A stretch of 64,000 bases of DNA, taken from positions 62,001-126,000 of the forward strand of contig CAJXVM010000005.1 in NCBI GenBank assembly GCA_913061095.1, read 5' to 3'. Of this stretch, positions 40,822 through 48,401 are shown piece by piece. Each line of letters begins with the position of its first letter. Within the stretch, counting starts at the first letter, position 1. The stretch is from an uncultured Ignavibacteria bacterium. GTDB taxonomy: Bacteria; Bacteroidota; Ignavibacteria; SZUA-365. The notes below the pieces were generated by a model, which was not told where the DNA came from, did no database searches, and saw nothing but the letters and a program-made list of their open reading frames with translations. Position numbers and translations under genes: made by a program.

Positions 40822-43800
40822 TCACAACTGCATGATGACCTGTAGCTGCGCATCTGGTTCGGTACCGGTGAACAGGCTGCTGCTGGATTCAAACCACCGT
40901 ACGGAATAGCGCAGACGGATCGATAGAACCGCGTGCGGATACCAGTCGACCGATAGCGTGTTGCGCAGGTCCCGAGCGTATACGGTCTCCTGGAAAGAGA
41001 ATGCATGCTCCCGGTATGTGAAGGTAAGATCTTCACGCAGTTCCAGCCTGCGCAGAACCGGCAGGTCGTGCAGCGTCGCCGTCATGTTGATGCCTGGAGT
41101 AATTTCCCGAGTCGTGCTGTTTCCGGTATACCATTGCAGGTCGCTGTATCGGGCATTGAGGGTCAGCCGAAAGAGCAGTTCCCGGGAGAGACGCCGTTCC
41201 GCCCACGCCGATGGTGCGTACTCCTGCAGGCGGCGCAGCTGGCGGAGATCGTTACTTGTGAGCATTGTCAGCTGAAGCGCATATAATGATCTGCTGTCGG
41301 GACGATAATCCGCTCTCTGTATCATCTCGCGCTGCAGCCTGCGGTAGTTTGAGTCCCACGTACTGCTGTTGTGTTCCGTGAGCCGGCCGGTAACGGAGTA
41401 CAGTACTTCCGGCATGGGACGCCATTCGATCCGTGACTCGAACAGTCGGGATATGGATTCGGATTCAGTACGTCCGGAGCCGGATTCGAGAAGACCTGCA
41501 ATGAGCCGGTCCGCGGAAGTGACCGCACTGCGGTAGGCTGACCTGTTCTCGGATGCTGTCACATACAGCGTCAGGGGAGAGAGCGGTGCCACCCATATTC
41601 CCGGCGCGAGTCGGAGGCTGGCCTGCAGGCTCCCGCGCCGATGCTGATTGTCGTTCCCACCCGAAACGTCGAACTGCTGAAGACGCTGTGTCAGACGTCC
41701 GCTGAGTGAAATCCCGCGCAATTCCTCCATGATGACATCCACATACAGACGGTCTTCGCTGCGATCGTCTGTCCATGCCGTACCTGCGCCGCCGCGTCGT
41801 TCCCTCGTGTCGGCCTGGTAATACGCATTGATGGTGAAAAGCGGTCGCGGTGCCAGCACGGTGCGCAGGAAGTAATTCTGCACACGGTAATCACCCGGAT
41901 TCACTCCGCCGTCGATGCGTTCCTCCGCCATACGTGCGTAGCCCGTGATGCGGGCGCTGCTGAAGGACGCGGATTCGAGCAGTTTTGTATCCGGCACCCA
42001 GGTCATGTCGATGCGTCCGCCGCTGCGGCTGCGCTCCGAGTTCGCGAGCGATTCGCGCGACCGTTCACCGCGCAGGGTGATCGATGGAAGTCCCGATGTC
42101 ACATACTGCAGACCGCCGTATGCATACATGTCATCGGTGGCGATGCCGGTCAGCGTGTCGAACCCGTCTCGTTTTGTCCAGGTCGCGAAGGCACGCAGTT
42201 CCGGAACCAGATCGTATTCGCCGTGGATGCGATGTTCGTCCAACAGTCGCCCATGGGAGAAACTGCGCTCCTGTGGTGTGAGGAAATTCCGGTCGCTCAT
42301 TGTGGATCGCAGCGACAGCCGCGCCTCCGGCGTGCTCACCGTGGCCGTGATGCCAGCGGCCTGTCCCCTGGAAGTATCAGACCAGGTCGTGGTATACTCG
42401 GGTTGCACACGCACGTCGAGCGCCTCCGACTGCCAGCGCACTTCGGCCCGGGCTCGCGTAAATGTCACGACATCCGCGTCCCCGGTCGGATGGAAACGAC
42501 CGGCCGAGATACCGGCATGGGCGAAGTCGGACGGTGAGACGGTGACGCCAACGCGCGTCACACGTTCTTCCGACACGGACCGCACGTATTCATATTGCAC
42601 TTCGATGCGGCTGTCATCCTGCACCGCGCCGTCGCGTGTGAACAGCAGGAAACCGCTGCTGTAATCGAGGATGTAATCCTCACCGGCTCGCATCTCAAGC
42701 CCGTCGACCAGCACACGCTCTGTGCCGCGGATGATGCGATTGCGGCTGAGCTGATATCCCGTGCTGAACGCCTCAAACCTGATGTGCATGGTGTACGTCG
42801 TTATCGGGTCGTCTGCATAGGCCTCGTCGGGAAAGGGCTGCTCCTGCGGAAAATGCAGGATGCCGGTGTGATAGTCGATGAAATCCGCATCCACGCTCCC
42901 ATTGCTGTCGCGATCGAGGTCAAAGCGGGATAGGGGGATGTCCGCTCCCGCCGCATCGGTGATGCGCAGCGTGAAGGAGGACGGGATGATGTCATATCCC
43001 CCCACGAAATACCGGTTGCGGATGAGCAGCGGGCGTGCGTCGCTGCTCTGCAAAAGGAGGTCAACGGTCGCGTCAGCCGCACCGATGCGGGCGACAAGCT
43101 GTGCGTATTGCGCGGGTTCGGCCAGCTGCAGGATGCTTCGTTGGTGATCAACGAAATAATCCACGCCTTCGACAAGCGGAATCCAGTCGTCGCGGATGCC
43201 GGCGAGTACGGCATCGCGCAGGAGCAGCGGGCTTGACTGCTCGTCGGGACGGGCGCTCCGGAACATGGCAACTCTCGATGCATCGAGCGGCAGCAACCGT
43301 CGATCCTCACGGAGATGGTACCAGCGAAAACGCTGCCATGCCCCGTCGGGGATGGTGAATTCCGTGCTGCGCGTGCGGCCGTAATACGCATCGGTGGCCA
43401 GCGCGGTGGTCTTGTGGCCGCTCAGTCCGGCGACTTCGAGAAAGGACCTGCCATATCGCTCGGTGCGCGGTCCGTATTCCGCGCGTCCCCCGACCCCGAA
43501 TACACCGTAGGACTGCTCGAGCAACTGCCTTCCCTCCTCGATGCGGATGTCGCCCCATTGCAGGGACTGCAGAATGTCAGCGCGTGCGCCGCGGTACTCC
43601 GCACCGTAGGTGACGTCCTCGAAATCCGCGTCATTGTACATCGCGCTGATGCCTCTTCCGTCACCGAGATCCAGCCGCGCCTTGAGGTCGTTCCGACGCG
43701 CGATGTCGCCGCCGTCCTCGTTCCCGAAGGGATCTTCGATCAGCCAGGAGGAACGGCTGCCGCTCAGATCCAGCCGAATCCCGTCGCCGAAGTCGGCAAA

Positions 43801-44943
43801 ACTTCCATCGGCTGGATCGAGGGAAAAGCGTGTGCCTGCGGCGCGCTCCGGCTGCAGCAGCGGAAATGTATACCAGCGGTCCTGATCACTGCGGTAGTAG
43901 ACGAGCGAGGTATCCGAAAAGGCAACCACGCCGTCGCCCAGTGCAAAGAGCGCATGAATGGCAACCTCGGGCAGACCGCTTGCCGTGGTGAAATACGTCC
44001 ATCCTCCCGTTGCGCGATCGTAGCGCGTGAGCCCTGACGCCGTGCTGAACCACAGCGTGCGGCTGTCAGCGGAAAGGGTGACTGCTCGGAGATCGTTGTC
44101 GGGAAGCTGTGTGAGTTCGAGAAACGGACGCAGCGCATCGGCGGAGGCGTCGTACTGCCAGAGATCGTTTGCGGTGAGCATCCAGAATCCGCTGCCGCTG
44201 ATAATGATTTCACGGATATCGCTCCCGCGAAATCCCTTCAGCGCATACGGTGAGAATACACGGGCATCCGTGTCGAATCGGTACAGCGCGGTTTCTCCCA
44301 GAAGCCAGAGCCACGGTCCCGCCGCGAAGGCGTCACGGATACCCGCTGCGGCAGGAGCGTCGTAGTAGCGCCAGCGCTCATAGCGGGGATCGTATTCTTC
44401 CACACCGGCTTCTGTGGCAAGAAAGACGCGATCATCCTCCGGCACGACGGCATGCACGGCGGAGCCGCGAAGTCCCTGCTCCGGTCCGATACGCTGCCAC
44501 TCCTCTATGAGCTCGTCGTAGCGTGCCGCGCCGCTGCTGCCCCCGGTCCACACGTAATCATCCTCGAAGGCGATCGTGCGAACGCGGCCGACGGGCAGAC
44601 CGCTGCTGCTGTCGAAATGCAGCATGGTATTGCTTCGAAGATCGAACGTCGTCAGCGCATCCTGCTGCCCGATCCATATTACGTCGCTCCGTCGATCGAG
44701 CGTCGTGATTTCAGCCGAGGGCAGTCCGTTCTGCGGACCGTATGCCGACCAGACGTTATCTTCGAAGCGGTAGCGGTAGAGTCCGCGGGGAGTGCCCACC
44801 CACAGTGACGTACCGGAAGCAAGTGTCGAATATAAGCGGTCGGGGAAATGCACGCGCACCTGTGCCCGCAGATCCGGCGTGGAGATCAGCGGAATGCAGA
44901 TGAGCAGAAGGAGGGCGAACGACGCCCCGCGGTGCGCGGACAT
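40822..44943 (-). CDS. Sensor-type beta-propeller fused to a giant SprA-like outer-membrane barrel
   Basis: A 1373-aa protein with a signal peptide to about residue 28. A propeller of two-component-regulator-propeller blades covers about 30-365 (LWVGTPRGLYRYRFEDNVWSAY, LWFSTASGLTRYDRATGGW). Strand-rich segments (about 580-790) contain SprA-like phrases: VEGVDYFVDHQRSILQL, FIDYHTGILHFP and LVDGLEMRAGEDYILDY. About 580 residues of long amphipathic strands follow. There is no kinase or DNA-binding domain. The protein may gate or sense at the outer membrane. The start is ATG 44943, 8 bp downstream of the preceding DUF362 gene on this strand. Confidence 0.75.
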   Translation of the reverse strand: MSAHRGASFALLLLICIPLISTPDLRAQVRVHFPDRLYSTLASGTSLWVGTPRGLYRYRFEDNVWSAYGPQNGLPSAEITTLDRRSDVIWIGQQDALTTFDLRSNTMLHFDSSSGLPVGRVRTIAFEDDYVWTGGSSGAARYDELIEEWQRIGPEQGLRGSAVHAVVPEDDRVFLATEAGVEEYDPRYERWRYYDAPAAAGIRDAFAAGPWLWLLGETALYRFDTDARVFSPYALKGFRGSDIREIIISGSGFWMLTANDLWQYDASADALRPFLELTQLPDNDLRAVTLSADSRTLWFSTASGLTRYDRATGGWTYFTTASGLPEVAIHALFALGDGVVAFSDTSLVYYRSDQDRWYTFPLLQPERAAGTRFSLDPADGSFADFGDGIRLDLSGSRSSWLIEDPFGNEDGGDIARRNDLKARLDLGDGRGISAMYNDADFEDVTYGAEYRGARADILQSLQWGDIRIEEGRQLLEQSYGVFGVGGRAEYGPRTERYGRSFLEVAGLSGHKTTALATDAYYGRTRSTEFTIPDGAWQRFRWYHLREDRRLLPLDASRVAMFRSARPDEQSSPLLLRDAVLAGIRDDWIPLVEGVDYFVDHQRSILQLAEPAQYAQLVARIGAADATVDLLLQSSDARPLLIRNRYFVGGYDIIPSSFTLRITDAAGADIPLSRFDLDRDSNGSVDADFIDYHTGILHFPQEQPFPDEAYADDPITTYTMHIRFEAFSTGYQLSRNRIIRGTERVLVDGLEMRAGEDYILDYSSGFLLFTRDGAVQDDSRIEVQYEYVRSVSEERVTRVGVTVSPSDFAHAGISAGRFHPTGDADVVTFTRARAEVRWQSEALDVRVQPEYTTTWSDTSRGQAAGITATVSTPEARLSLRSTMSDRNFLTPQERSFSHGRLLDEHRIHGEYDLVPELRAFATWTKRDGFDTLTGIATDDMYAYGGLQYVTSGLPSITLRGERSRESLANSERSRSGGRIDMTWVPDTKLLESASFSSARITGYARMAEERIDGGVNPGDYRVQNYFLRTVLAPRPLFTINAYYQADTRERRGGAGTAWTDDRSEDRLYVDVIMEELRGISLSGRLTQRLQQFDVSGGNDNQHRRGSLQASLRLAPGIWVAPLSPLTLYVTASENRSAYRSAVTSADRLIAGLLESGSGRTESESISRLFESRIEWRPMPEVLYSVTGRLTEHNSSTWDSNYRRLQREMIQRADYRPDSRSLYALQLTMLTSNDLRQLRRLQEYAPSAWAERRLSRELLFRLTLNARYSDLQWYTGNSTTREITPGINMTATLHDLPVLRRLELREDLTFTYREHAFSFQETVYARDLRNTLSVDWYPHAVLSIRLRYSVRWFESSSSLFTGTEPDAQLQVIMQL

Positions 44944-44951
44944 TACGGATG

Positions 44952-45890
44952 TTACCCAAGGTTTGTGCGGACGATCTGCTCTTCCGGGATGTGCAACGTT
45001 CCAATACCGCGTTCCGCGGCAATCGCCAGGTGACGGATCTGTGCCGGATCACCTGCACGGTTGTTCCACTCGGCCAGCCGCACGCCCGCGGCATCCACCG
45101 CGACCGGATCGATTCCTGCGATGATCGTATCCAGCTGTTCGGTCTGACCCGGTCCACCCGGTCCGTTGGTCAGCAGGACGTGGTGTGCGTCGAGAATGGT
45201 CAGCTGCGGACGAATGACGCCAGCGAGATCGGCCACGGCGGTGTGCAGATCGTAGTCTCCGTGGAACGAACTCCGGTCATGAATCAGACCCATGAGGTTT
45301 TTCAATCCCATGCTGATTGTGGTCCCACGATGGCTTTTTGCGGAAGGAAGATTGATGAACACATCGGCTTTACGCAGCAGGCGTGCCACGGCGATCTCCC
45401 GGAATTCGGAGGCTTTCGGGGCGGCAACGGTTTCAAAGTCACGTTCTTCGCCGAGCTGCTTGAAGGTGAGCTGCGGCATCGACCCGGCGAGCGCCGTCAT
45501 GCCGCTTTTCTCGAAGCAGCGCTCCGCGCCCCGCATGGGGAAGTCCGCGGCGATGATACGCTTCGCGCCGGCCTCTTCGCACATTGTCACGACGGCGCGG
45601 ATGACCTCAGGATGCGTGGTTGATCCCCACTCCGGTGGATTGGGGAAGGACACGTTGGGCTTGAGAAATACGATGTCGCCGGGACGGACGAAGGTGCCGA
45701 TCCCGCCCAGGGCATCAACGGCTGCGCGAACACCTGCGGCGATATCCGTTCCCTTGACCATCGACAGAGCCGGTTCGGTGAAGGCGTCCGATGTCGCTGC
45801 CGCACGCGCAGTGCCGAGTCCCGGCAGACGCATTGTCTGCAGTGCGGCCGCACCCAGCAGTCCGGTGAGAAAAAACTCTCTTCGCTTCAT
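44952..45890 (-). CDS. DUF362 domain protein with Tat-like signal
   Basis: A 312-aa protein with a twin-arginine-type leader (KRREFFLTGLLGAAAL) and a DUF362 domain (about 45-300): FVRPGDIVFLKPNVSFPNPPEWGSTTHPEVI, FINLPSAKSHRGTTISMGLKNLMGL and PQLTILDAHHVLLTNGPGGPG. DUF362 proteins are of unknown function, often linked to redox cofactors; this one lacks the ferredoxin-like Cys clusters found in some relatives. It overlaps the lipoprotein gene before it by ATGA and is followed after 8 bp by the giant propeller/barrel gene. Confidence 0.9.
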   Translation of the reverse strand: MKRREFFLTGLLGAAALQTMRLPGLGTARAAATSDAFTEPALSMVKGTDIAAGVRAAVDALGGIGTFVRPGDIVFLKPNVSFPNPPEWGSTTHPEVIRAVVTMCEEAGAKRIIAADFPMRGAERCFEKSGMTALAGSMPQLTFKQLGEERDFETVAAPKASEFREIAVARLLRKADVFINLPSAKSHRGTTISMGLKNLMGLIHDRSSFHGDYDLHTAVADLAGVIRPQLTILDAHHVLLTNGPGGPGQTEQLDTIIAGIDPVAVDAAGVRLAEWNNRAGDPAQIRHLAIAAERGIGTLHIPEEQIVRTNLG

Positions 45891-46522
45891 TGTATCCTTG
45901 CCGCGACATTGTTGGCGAATACCTCGAGCACTTCCTGTCCCTTATCCTCGCTCGTGATGATGCTGATCAGCACATAGTAACGGTCCTTGACGAACTTCAT
46001 CGTCCATGAGAAGAGATCTTTCCGTATCTGTGCTCTTGTCGCGGGGGGATTGGCGGGAGCGATGGGACTGGCAAATACGTTGTTGGGATCGTCAAATACT
46101 TCATCGGCATTTTCCGCAGTACCCTGATCGTACACCTGTATCTCGCAGACGACGCCGGACTGTGCATTGACCTTACCCGTATAACTCTGCATTGCCGCCT
46201 CCACGAAACCGTGGTTTGTGTACAGCTCGGAACCGCCGTTGATCTGTTCCTGCAGTTCGGAAGGATTGACGGCCTGCCAGCTCCCGCCGCTTCCGCCGCT
46301 TTGGGACCAGCCGCTGATTTCGTTGTCGCGCGGCATCAGGTCGGCGATAGTCACGATGTCGGGTTCGGTGCCTGAATCGGACTTGTCACACGCCGGCAGC
46401 ATACCGAGCATCGTCAGCGCGATGCCGGCCATCAGCAGTCTGCTCCACCGCTGCCGTGCACGGCTCCCTCGCGTCTCTATCGAGCTGCGGTTGTGATCAT
46501 TCGAAATGCATGATTCCATCAT
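45887..46522 (-). CDS. Lipoprotein resembling DUF6599-type proteins
   Basis: A 211-aa protein with an unusually long N-terminal region before the lipoprotein signal (MAGIALTMLGMLPACDKS). The mature part starts TIADLMPRDNEISGWSQSG and ends in a helix-strand pattern (YYVLISIITSEDKGQEVLEVFANNV). This 'LxP-xx-xxxGW' start is what I recall from DUF6599 proteins, which are often encoded beside DUF362 genes. GGAAGGA precedes the ATG. A shorter start nearer the signal cannot be excluded. Coupled by ATGA to the DUF362 gene. Confidence 0.75.
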   Translation of the reverse strand: MMESCISNDHNRSSIETRGSRARQRWSRLLMAGIALTMLGMLPACDKSDSGTEPDIVTIADLMPRDNEISGWSQSGGSGGSWQAVNPSELQEQINGGSELYTNHGFVEAAMQSYTGKVNAQSGVVCEIQVYDQGTAENADEVFDDPNNVFASPIAPANPPATRAQIRKDLFSWTMKFVKDRYYVLISIITSEDKGQEVLEVFANNVAARIQ

Positions 46523-46622: not shown

Positions 46623-48227
46623 TCACCGTACGCGCAGCATCCTGATTTCCTGTGTCACACCCTCCGCAGCTGCCCGGGCAATGTACGTTCCTGCGGGCAG
46701 TGCCGATGCATCAAACTGGAAATAGTGCATTCCCTCCGGCATACTCCCGCTGCACAGTGTAGCCACGCGTGCGCCGGTCAGATCAAAGACTTCGAGTGAG
46801 AGCCGCGCGTCGCGCGGGAGTGAGACCGGCAATTCGGTCTCACCGGTAAACGGGTTGGGGTAGTTCTGCTCGAGCGTCCACGCAAGCGGATTGAACTGCA
46901 GCGTTACCTCAGTCGCGGCGGAATATTCGGTTGTGCCGTCACTGTCAATCTGGCGGAGACGATAGAACAGGCTGCGATGCCGCGAATGTGTTTCCCGGTC
47001 TCGGTCGGTGAAACGGTAGTCGCGCGTCGCACTGGTGCTTCCAGCTCCAGCCACGAAACCGATTTCCGTCCAGTCGTCCTGCCCGTTGGCACTGCGTTCG
47101 ATTGCGAAACCGTGATTGTTCGTTTCTCCCTCAGTGCGCCAGCGGAGCACGACGACGCCCTGCTCGAGTGCGGCGGTGTACAGCGCGAGAGACACCGGCA
47201 GCGCGACACTGATGATGTTCATCTTCTGTGGATCGGCGATACCGAGACTGAAGGGCGGGGCGGCGGCCTGGTCGATGTAGGTGCCGCTTTTTGCACTCAG
47301 TCCGTTGGCGCTGCGCAGGCTGTTGATCAGGATGCGTCCCTGCGCGTCGATGGCGACGGGATCCTGCGAGAGCAGGATTTTCTGCGGTGTCGCCTGGGGA
47401 TTGCCGCCCGGACCGCCGTTGTAAATGGCATAGAGCGCATCGAGGATAACAAGCCGCTGCTTTGACATCATGACGCTGCTTGCCATGATGTCCAGCACCG
47501 CATCCTTGTTGCAGTGAATGCCCAGCGATCCGCCCGGGTTCACTGTTCCCATATGGTTCTTGAATGACAGCGTCAGGTTCAGTCCGCCGCCGCAGTTGTG
47601 GTCTTTCAATACGGGCATGTTGATGAGATAGTCCGCTTCGTACAGGCTTTTGCTGTACGGACGGTCCTTGCCGTCGCAGTGAATGGTGTATCCCAGGTCC
47701 GGGAAGCTCGCATCCCTGACGAGATTGACATTGTGCCCGAAATACGATGTCGTGTAGCCCTTGTTCGAAAAGCTGTGCCGCTCGTATATCGTGATGTTCG
47801 AGGCGGGGAAGCCACCCAGCATGTCAGTCAGCCGGTTGATGACGGCCTTGACGAGTTCCTTGCGTGTGGGGACACTCCCGTTGATCAGGTTCGGCTTGAT
47901 GGCGATTTTTTTGCTTTTCGTCAGACCGGGGAACAATGACGCAAGCGCGGCCGCCGGCGATGTGTAAATGCCTGCCAGCTGCATGATGCCCTGATCGAAC
48001 ATCCCCTGTACATGTGTCTCATCCACATTATTGTATCCGAGCACCACGCTGGGGTGTTCCGCGATGACGATGCGTCCCGGATTGGGATACGCATATGTCT
48101 GCTCCGGCTCGGGAGTGGGAAGGGACGCTTTCGAGTGGGAAAGGAGCGGGGCAGGGAGGATGGATGCGCCGGCAAGTGCGGATCCGGCTTTCAGGAAAAA
48201 GCGGCGTGAGAGGGTCCGGCCGGACAT
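46623..48227 (-). CDS. DUF362 protein with Tat-type signal and T9SS sorting domain
   Basis: A 534-aa protein. The N-terminus has a Tat-type leader (SRRFFLKAGSALAGASIL). A DUF362 domain covers about 55-345 (IAIKPNLINGS, YLINMPVLKDHNCGGGLNLTLSFKNHMG, LVILDALYAIYNGGPGGNP). A fibronectin-like strand region follows (VVLRWRTEGETNNHGFAIERS), and a T9SS type A domain (LEQNYPNPFTGETELPVSLP) ends the protein. T9SS cargo is normally exported by Sec, so a folded, Tat-exported enzyme then passed through T9SS would be unusual. GAGGAGG precedes the ATG. Confidence 0.88.
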   Translation of the reverse strand: MSGRTLSRRFFLKAGSALAGASILPAPLLSHSKASLPTPEPEQTYAYPNPGRIVIAEHPSVVLGYNNVDETHVQGMFDQGIMQLAGIYTSPAAALASLFPGLTKSKKIAIKPNLINGSVPTRKELVKAVINRLTDMLGGFPASNITIYERHSFSNKGYTTSYFGHNVNLVRDASFPDLGYTIHCDGKDRPYSKSLYEADYLINMPVLKDHNCGGGLNLTLSFKNHMGTVNPGGSLGIHCNKDAVLDIMASSVMMSKQRLVILDALYAIYNGGPGGNPQATPQKILLSQDPVAIDAQGRILINSLRSANGLSAKSGTYIDQAAAPPFSLGIADPQKMNIISVALPVSLALYTAALEQGVVVLRWRTEGETNNHGFAIERSANGQDDWTEIGFVAGAGSTSATRDYRFTDRDRETHSRHRSLFYRLRQIDSDGTTEYSAATEVTLQFNPLAWTLEQNYPNPFTGETELPVSLPRDARLSLEVFDLTGARVATLCSGSMPEGMHYFQFDASALPAGTYIARAAAEGVTQEIRMLRVR

Positions 48228-48401
48228 GAGGCCTCCTCGGGATGATGACGCTACGGTGGATGTATCCCGCTCATCACGGGGCGACGGAGATTGCTGCAGG
48301 CAAAGTAGGAAACACCCGGCGTATTTTCAATATCCGGACCGTCAACTCCGAGTAAAAATCAGTGAATAACCCTCCGAATTGGCATCAGGATTGCGCTGTG
48401 C

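Follow-up and report, generated by a model that had tools for sequence, protein, structure and literature searches.

A DUF362 protein encoded in the window, as we refer to the whole stretch of 64,000 nucleotides analyzed here, carries a Tat-type leader at its N-terminus and a T9SS type A C-terminal sorting domain (CTD) at its opposite end. This combination of signals is real, is conserved among related bacteria, and is not confined to one gene. The retention of both address labels in related species suggests that Tat and the T9SS act in relay and, judging from the sequences, the protein is likely to be cargo of the T9SS that crosses the inner membrane by way of Tat, with folded cargo being handed from one system to the other, a reading to which we assign a probability of about 0.7.

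Tat moves proteins that are already folded, and gingipain-type proteins of Porphyromonas gingivalis exemplify cargo with type A CTDs. In the accessible text of two reviews, T9SS cargo is described as passing the outer membrane in the folded form and as entering the periplasm via Sec (PMC9251779, PMC5449463); the accessible part of one of these assigns Tat to the T2SS only (PMC5449463), and that of a third mentions in passing, without an example, Sec and Tat as the routes on which the T2SS and the T9SS depend (PMC8714846). No published Tat-led T9SS cargo was found in the literature searched, where subscription papers were thinly covered. A preliminary description of the window had held that a folded Tat substrate passing through the T9SS would extend the known export routes; as far as the accessible text of these sources goes, folded passage through the T9SS is already known, and the unusual part is the Tat feeding step.

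Gene structure and domain architecture

The window gene (positions 46623..48227, minus strand, as are its parts and its DUF6599 and DUF362 neighbors described below) is a single clean frame of 534 codons, delineated by open reading frame analysis and domain searches. Its ATG is the sole start codon ahead of the twin-arginine motif within an open stretch of 33 codons and lies 4 nt downstream of a Shine-Dalgarno-like GAGGAGG that is read directly from the sequence (48232..48238). From the N- to the C-terminus, the encoded protein consists of the SRRFFLK leader, the DUF362 domain, an Ig/FnIII-like beta sandwich, and the T9SS type A tail. The predicted structure has a mean pLDDT of 77.5 and a pTM of 0.59.

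The leader, MSGRTLSRRFFLK, was delimited by sequence, HMM, and comparison with homologs to residues 1-35 (48123..48227), with its end placed provisionally between SKA and S. The motif SRRFFLK (residues 7-13, 48189..48209) agrees with S-R-R-x-F-L-K, the Tat consensus; in MSGRTLSRRFFLKAGSALAGASILPAPLLSHSKAS, this match is followed by a stretch of weak hydrophobicity, with a Lys ahead of the likely cleavage site. Thus, the features of a Tat substrate, a twin-arginine motif in the n-region and a weak hydrophobic core, are both present, with an HMM score barely above the cut-off: in a genome-wide search, TIGR01409 (TAT_signal_seq) reaches 16.8 bits against a cut-off of 16.7, and the model is absent from an hmmscan of the full-length protein even at E 10. 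The score being borderline, it is conservation that carries the case for Tat.

The DUF362 domain was identified with PF04015, which scores 82.1 bits (gathering score 24) over residues 108-295 (47343..47906); the racemase-like fold discussed below covers residues 57-306. The beta sandwich that follows (residues 345-444, 46896..47195) was recognized in the predicted structure (for example, 2ibg_B, Z 9.7). The sorting domain occupies residues 456-526 (46650..46862), reaching almost to the last residue, where TIGR04183 scores 26.2 bits (cut-off 23), and its fold matches the CTD region of PorU (6za2). The corresponding Pfam model, PF18962, yields 25.0 bits, slightly under its cut-off of 27, and FlgD_ig is an additional weak Pfam match, so the fold of the tail alone is unspecific. 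The host encodes SprA and PorU, and the sorting domain belongs to the same family as that of known type A cargo, which differs in using Sec at the inner membrane. In the window protein, the Tat-type leader replaces the usual Sec-type signal peptide, and we therefore class it as a variant of T9SS type A cargo, predicted to use Tat.

Conservation and recurrence of the two signals

Among 197 genomes of the class, full-length relatives were detected only within the same order, where 12 of 16 genomes, counting our own, carry one; there was none in the 181 others. The gene is missing from one same-genus genome that is 100% complete (G001); the other three order genomes without it are 74-88% complete. 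A shorter tandem relative is present in 5 of the 12 carrier genomes; the one in L042 is cut by a contig end, and the other four were aligned. Alignment A1 (n=16) comprises the window protein, 11 orthologs, and four tandem copies, with 15 readable N-termini. At E <= 0.01, TIGR04183 matches all 16 members, TIGR01409 six, and PF10518 five. One ortholog (L040:248-1849) exceeds both curated cut-offs, with 24.0 against 16.7 bits for the Tat model and 24.5 against 23 for the T9SS model; orthologs L036 (17.1) and L043 (18.4) fall below the TIGR04183 cut-off.

Our own genome assembly (4.61 Mb, 42 contigs) encodes the Tat system, on the presence of which the original proposal depended, in the form of TatC (239 bits) and one TatA/B-type protein (66 bits), as well as the T9SS components SprA (1003 bits) and PorU (974 bits).

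One alternative takes the Tat leader at face value and leaves the tail unused, as an ordinary Ig-like domain of a protein that would be periplasmic or anchored by its uncut leader. The modest CTD score, with the shortfall in Pfam and the weak FlgD_ig match, would fit such a protein, as would the lack, by eye, of a clear AxA site in some leaders, such as that of L043, and the presence next door of another DUF362 protein, which has a Tat-like leader but is tail-less. We consider this explanation unlikely, given that TIGR04183 is found in 16/16 members of A1, that the domain sits at the extreme C-terminus and shows YPNPF and G-x-Y, as type A CTDs do, and that the tail is retained in the shortened tandem copies, which have no Ig-like domain. 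The presence in the same genome of at least 150 other CTD proteins, along with SprA and PorU, also argues against an unused tail.

A second alternative concerns the leader, which might work via Sec; the twin Arg would then be relictual or decorative, and the protein would be exported unfolded like other T9SS cargo. As a background, we decoded the N-termini of the best-scoring 150 of 289 candidate CTD proteins in the genome, a set that excludes the window protein and a Tat-led DUF1501 protein (see below) and hence under-samples weaker CTDs. Start codons were picked by a script that favors hydrophobic leaders, and 144 of the 150 frames were closed upstream. These best 150 proteins have Sec-type leaders, and 25 of them contain RR within the first 25 residues, so that RR alone is weak evidence; together with the Sec-type leaders on 6 of 18 related DUF362 proteins, this is what can be said for export of the window protein via Sec.

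The full motif behaves differently. R8, R9, F11, and L12 (RRxFL) are invariant in 15/15 readable leaders of A1, and Ser precedes the Arg pair in 14 of these, while codons and neighboring residues drift: the pair is encoded by nine different codon pairs, and the mean majority identity of the other leader columns is 0.46 versus 0.78 in the DUF362 part. By contrast, RRxF occurs in none of the best 150 CTD proteins of the genome, and RRx[FL] directly before a hydrophobic residue is seen in just two, whose cores are strongly hydrophobic, of the Sec type, and terminate in AQ. The best 12-residue hydrophobicity is 1.16-1.92 in the 15 DUF362 leaders, compared to a median of 2.64 in the 150 CTD proteins, and the window protein has a Lys near the cleavage site. 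Taken together with the motif, these features make a Sec-dependent leader rather improbable. The preliminary description thus identified both signals correctly, the closeness of SRRFFLK to the Tat consensus and the type A domain alike, the marginal TIGR01409 score notwithstanding.

A chance or annotation artefact, namely, a wrong start codon or a fusion of two genes, has no supporting point that we could find and is of negligible probability in view of the single start codon with a Shine-Dalgarno sequence ahead of the motif and the maintenance of the architecture across 12 genomes at 60-79% identity.

At the DNA level, the strict pattern [ST]RRxFL[KR] is itself unenriched, with 50 matches in the genome versus 74 for a reversed control. 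Among the 35 matches that were decoded (30, and 5 of the other 20), three are true leaders, one belonging to the window gene and the other two to an asparaginase-like protein (C6:129206) and to a NusG-II protein (C21:79895). The HMM survey provides a better count of Tat leaders: TIGR01409 at E <= 10 hits 13 places in the genome, of which 11 lie at, or close to, the start of a gene and are leaders, while the other two are not. The 11 proteins are five DUF362 proteins, NusG-II, a molybdopterin/Fe-S protein, a superoxide dismutase, an asparaginase, a TldD-like protein, and a DUF1501 protein. Three of them bear a CTD-like tail: the window protein; another DUF362 protein of 554 aa, in which the tail scores 16.7 bits, under the cut-off (G000:C3, L287:655-2316); and the DUF1501 protein, in which TIGR04183 reaches 28.7 bits (G000:C3:4540-6132, L288:541-2133).

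When the DUF1501 protein was searched against 395 genomes of the phylum, matches were obtained in 280, many of which, to judge by their E-values, probably involve the tail alone; most of the best matches listed extend from leader to tail. In 27 of 30 aligned DUF1501 proteins, RRxF[LIVMF] is present within the first 40 residues, the remaining three being two with RK instead of RR and one with a badly chosen start, and TIGR04183 is detected in all 30 at E <= 0.05. These proteins have the same signal combination as the window protein around an unrelated central domain; with DUF362 and DUF1501 both bearing a Tat leader and a CTD, at least two unrelated families share the combination. The window protein is accordingly no isolated curiosity, as DUF1501 proteins bear both signals across the phylum.

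A putative relay of folded cargo

The combined evidence is best explained by the following proposed route. The window protein would fold in the cytoplasm, and its SRRFFLK leader would take the folded protein to the Tat translocase and into the periplasm, where the leader would be cut. The folded C-terminal beta-sandwich would then be recognized by the T9SS, the protein would exit via SprA, and PorU would remove or exchange the tail, resulting in surface attachment or release. At the end of this route, the DUF362 part would act outside the cytoplasm as a protein with a LarA-like fold. In evolutionary terms, the Tat leader would go back to DUF362 ancestors that had no tail, and the sorting tail would be an acquisition of this T9SS-bearing order.

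A close known parallel is that of Tat substrates of the type II system, which, in the accessible text of two sources, likewise take two steps, Tat being followed by another machine at the outer membrane (PMC5449463, PMC13162877); in the window protein, the second step is predicted to be the T9SS instead, with the CTD as the signal.

If the proposed relay exists, a natural set of Tat-led cargo would mean that folding in the cytoplasm does not bar a protein from the T9SS. Surface display would then be feasible for enzymes with cofactors inserted in the cytoplasm, and CTD recognition after Tat passage would become testable. Furthermore, DUF362 and DUF1501, both named as domains of unknown function, would gain a predicted location. 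It is tempting, though doubtful, to extend this to a general Tat-to-T9SS relay of the phylum, which would serve DUF362, DUF1501, and perhaps more families; folded, possibly cofactor-loaded proteins would be exported by Tat and pass through SprA to the surface, placing a LarA-like, possibly nickel-pincer enzyme outside the cell.

Fold, origin, and neighborhood of the DUF362 part

In the predicted structure, the DUF362 part resembles malate racemase Mar2 (7s91; Z 14.2 over 204 residues, 3.2 A) and lactate racemase LarA (6c1w; Z 13.5), nickel-pincer racemases of the DUF2088 family; the racemases came first only on a second ranking, the top list of Foldseek itself being dominated by C-terminal sandwiches. 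According to the accessible text of one source, Pfam clan CL0471 contains both DUF362 and DUF2088 (PMC11770544). At the sequence level, Lar_N is absent from the Pfam list of the window protein at E <= 1, phmmer of the DUF362 part against the PDB retrieved nothing at E <= 10, and a comparison of A1, a shallow profile, with the genome's own LarA showed no relation in the racemase domain. The genome encodes LarC as well as LarA, and the nickel-pincer cofactor may accordingly be made in the host. The modeled fold makes a LarA-like pocket in the DUF362 part possible; it does not show the cofactor itself. By eye, a K-D-H and a K-N-H motif are invariant in A1, and their spacing resembles that of His and Lys in LarA, a resemblance that we treat as a lead only. 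The description of the protein as cofactor-bearing is thus unproven, and six of the 18 decoded DUF362 homologs are Sec-led.

These 18 homologs come from elsewhere in the phylum, where 21 of 30 DUF362 loci were taken (three were not decoded); 12 have Tat-type and six Sec-type leaders, which indicates that the DUF362 domain does not always need Tat, and no T9SS tail was seen by eye on any of the 18. The close relatives amount to a natural leader swap, with Sec in L237, L239, L240, L241, L243, and L245 and Tat in L238, L242, L246, L247, L249, and L250. Among 28 loci from named genomes, the readable DUF362 leaders outside the order (Acidobacteria, Zipacnadia, Thermodesulfobacteriota, and others) are mostly Tat-type and the proteins tail-less; several further loci there are leaderless or were decoded out of frame. 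Such proteins, also encoded in our own genome (C9, C6, and C4), share the leader and the DUF362 domain with the window protein but have neither the Ig-like domain nor the CTD. The simplest history suggested by these sequences has an ancient Tat leader in DUF362 and a gain of the tail in this order.

The window gene is followed by a gene for a DUF6599 protein with a lipobox-like ..MLPAC sequence (45887..46522), which shares 4 nt with the next gene. The latter encodes the second DUF362 protein, identified by open reading frame and Pfam analysis, with the Tat-like leader MKRREFFLTG and without a T9SS tail (44952..45890). By tblastn, DUF6599 was recovered as a neighbor in 10 of the other 11 genomes, and for the second DUF362 gene the figure is 8 of 11; the misses are contig or locus ends or weak matches. 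A DUF6599-like sequence also adjoins DUF362 in the Acidobacteria-type loci L226 and L233. Farther along, at 40822-44943, the window encodes a 1373-aa protein with no Pfam match (E <= 0.01) that is conserved after the DUF362 cluster in seven named-genome loci. In two other loci, the DUF362 gene is adjoined by AmmeMemoRadiSam radical SAM enzymes (L221:3085-4245 and L223:4885-6045; TIGR04337, 371 and 367 bits, respectively) that bear a twin-arginine-like leader; for such an enzyme, export would be odd.
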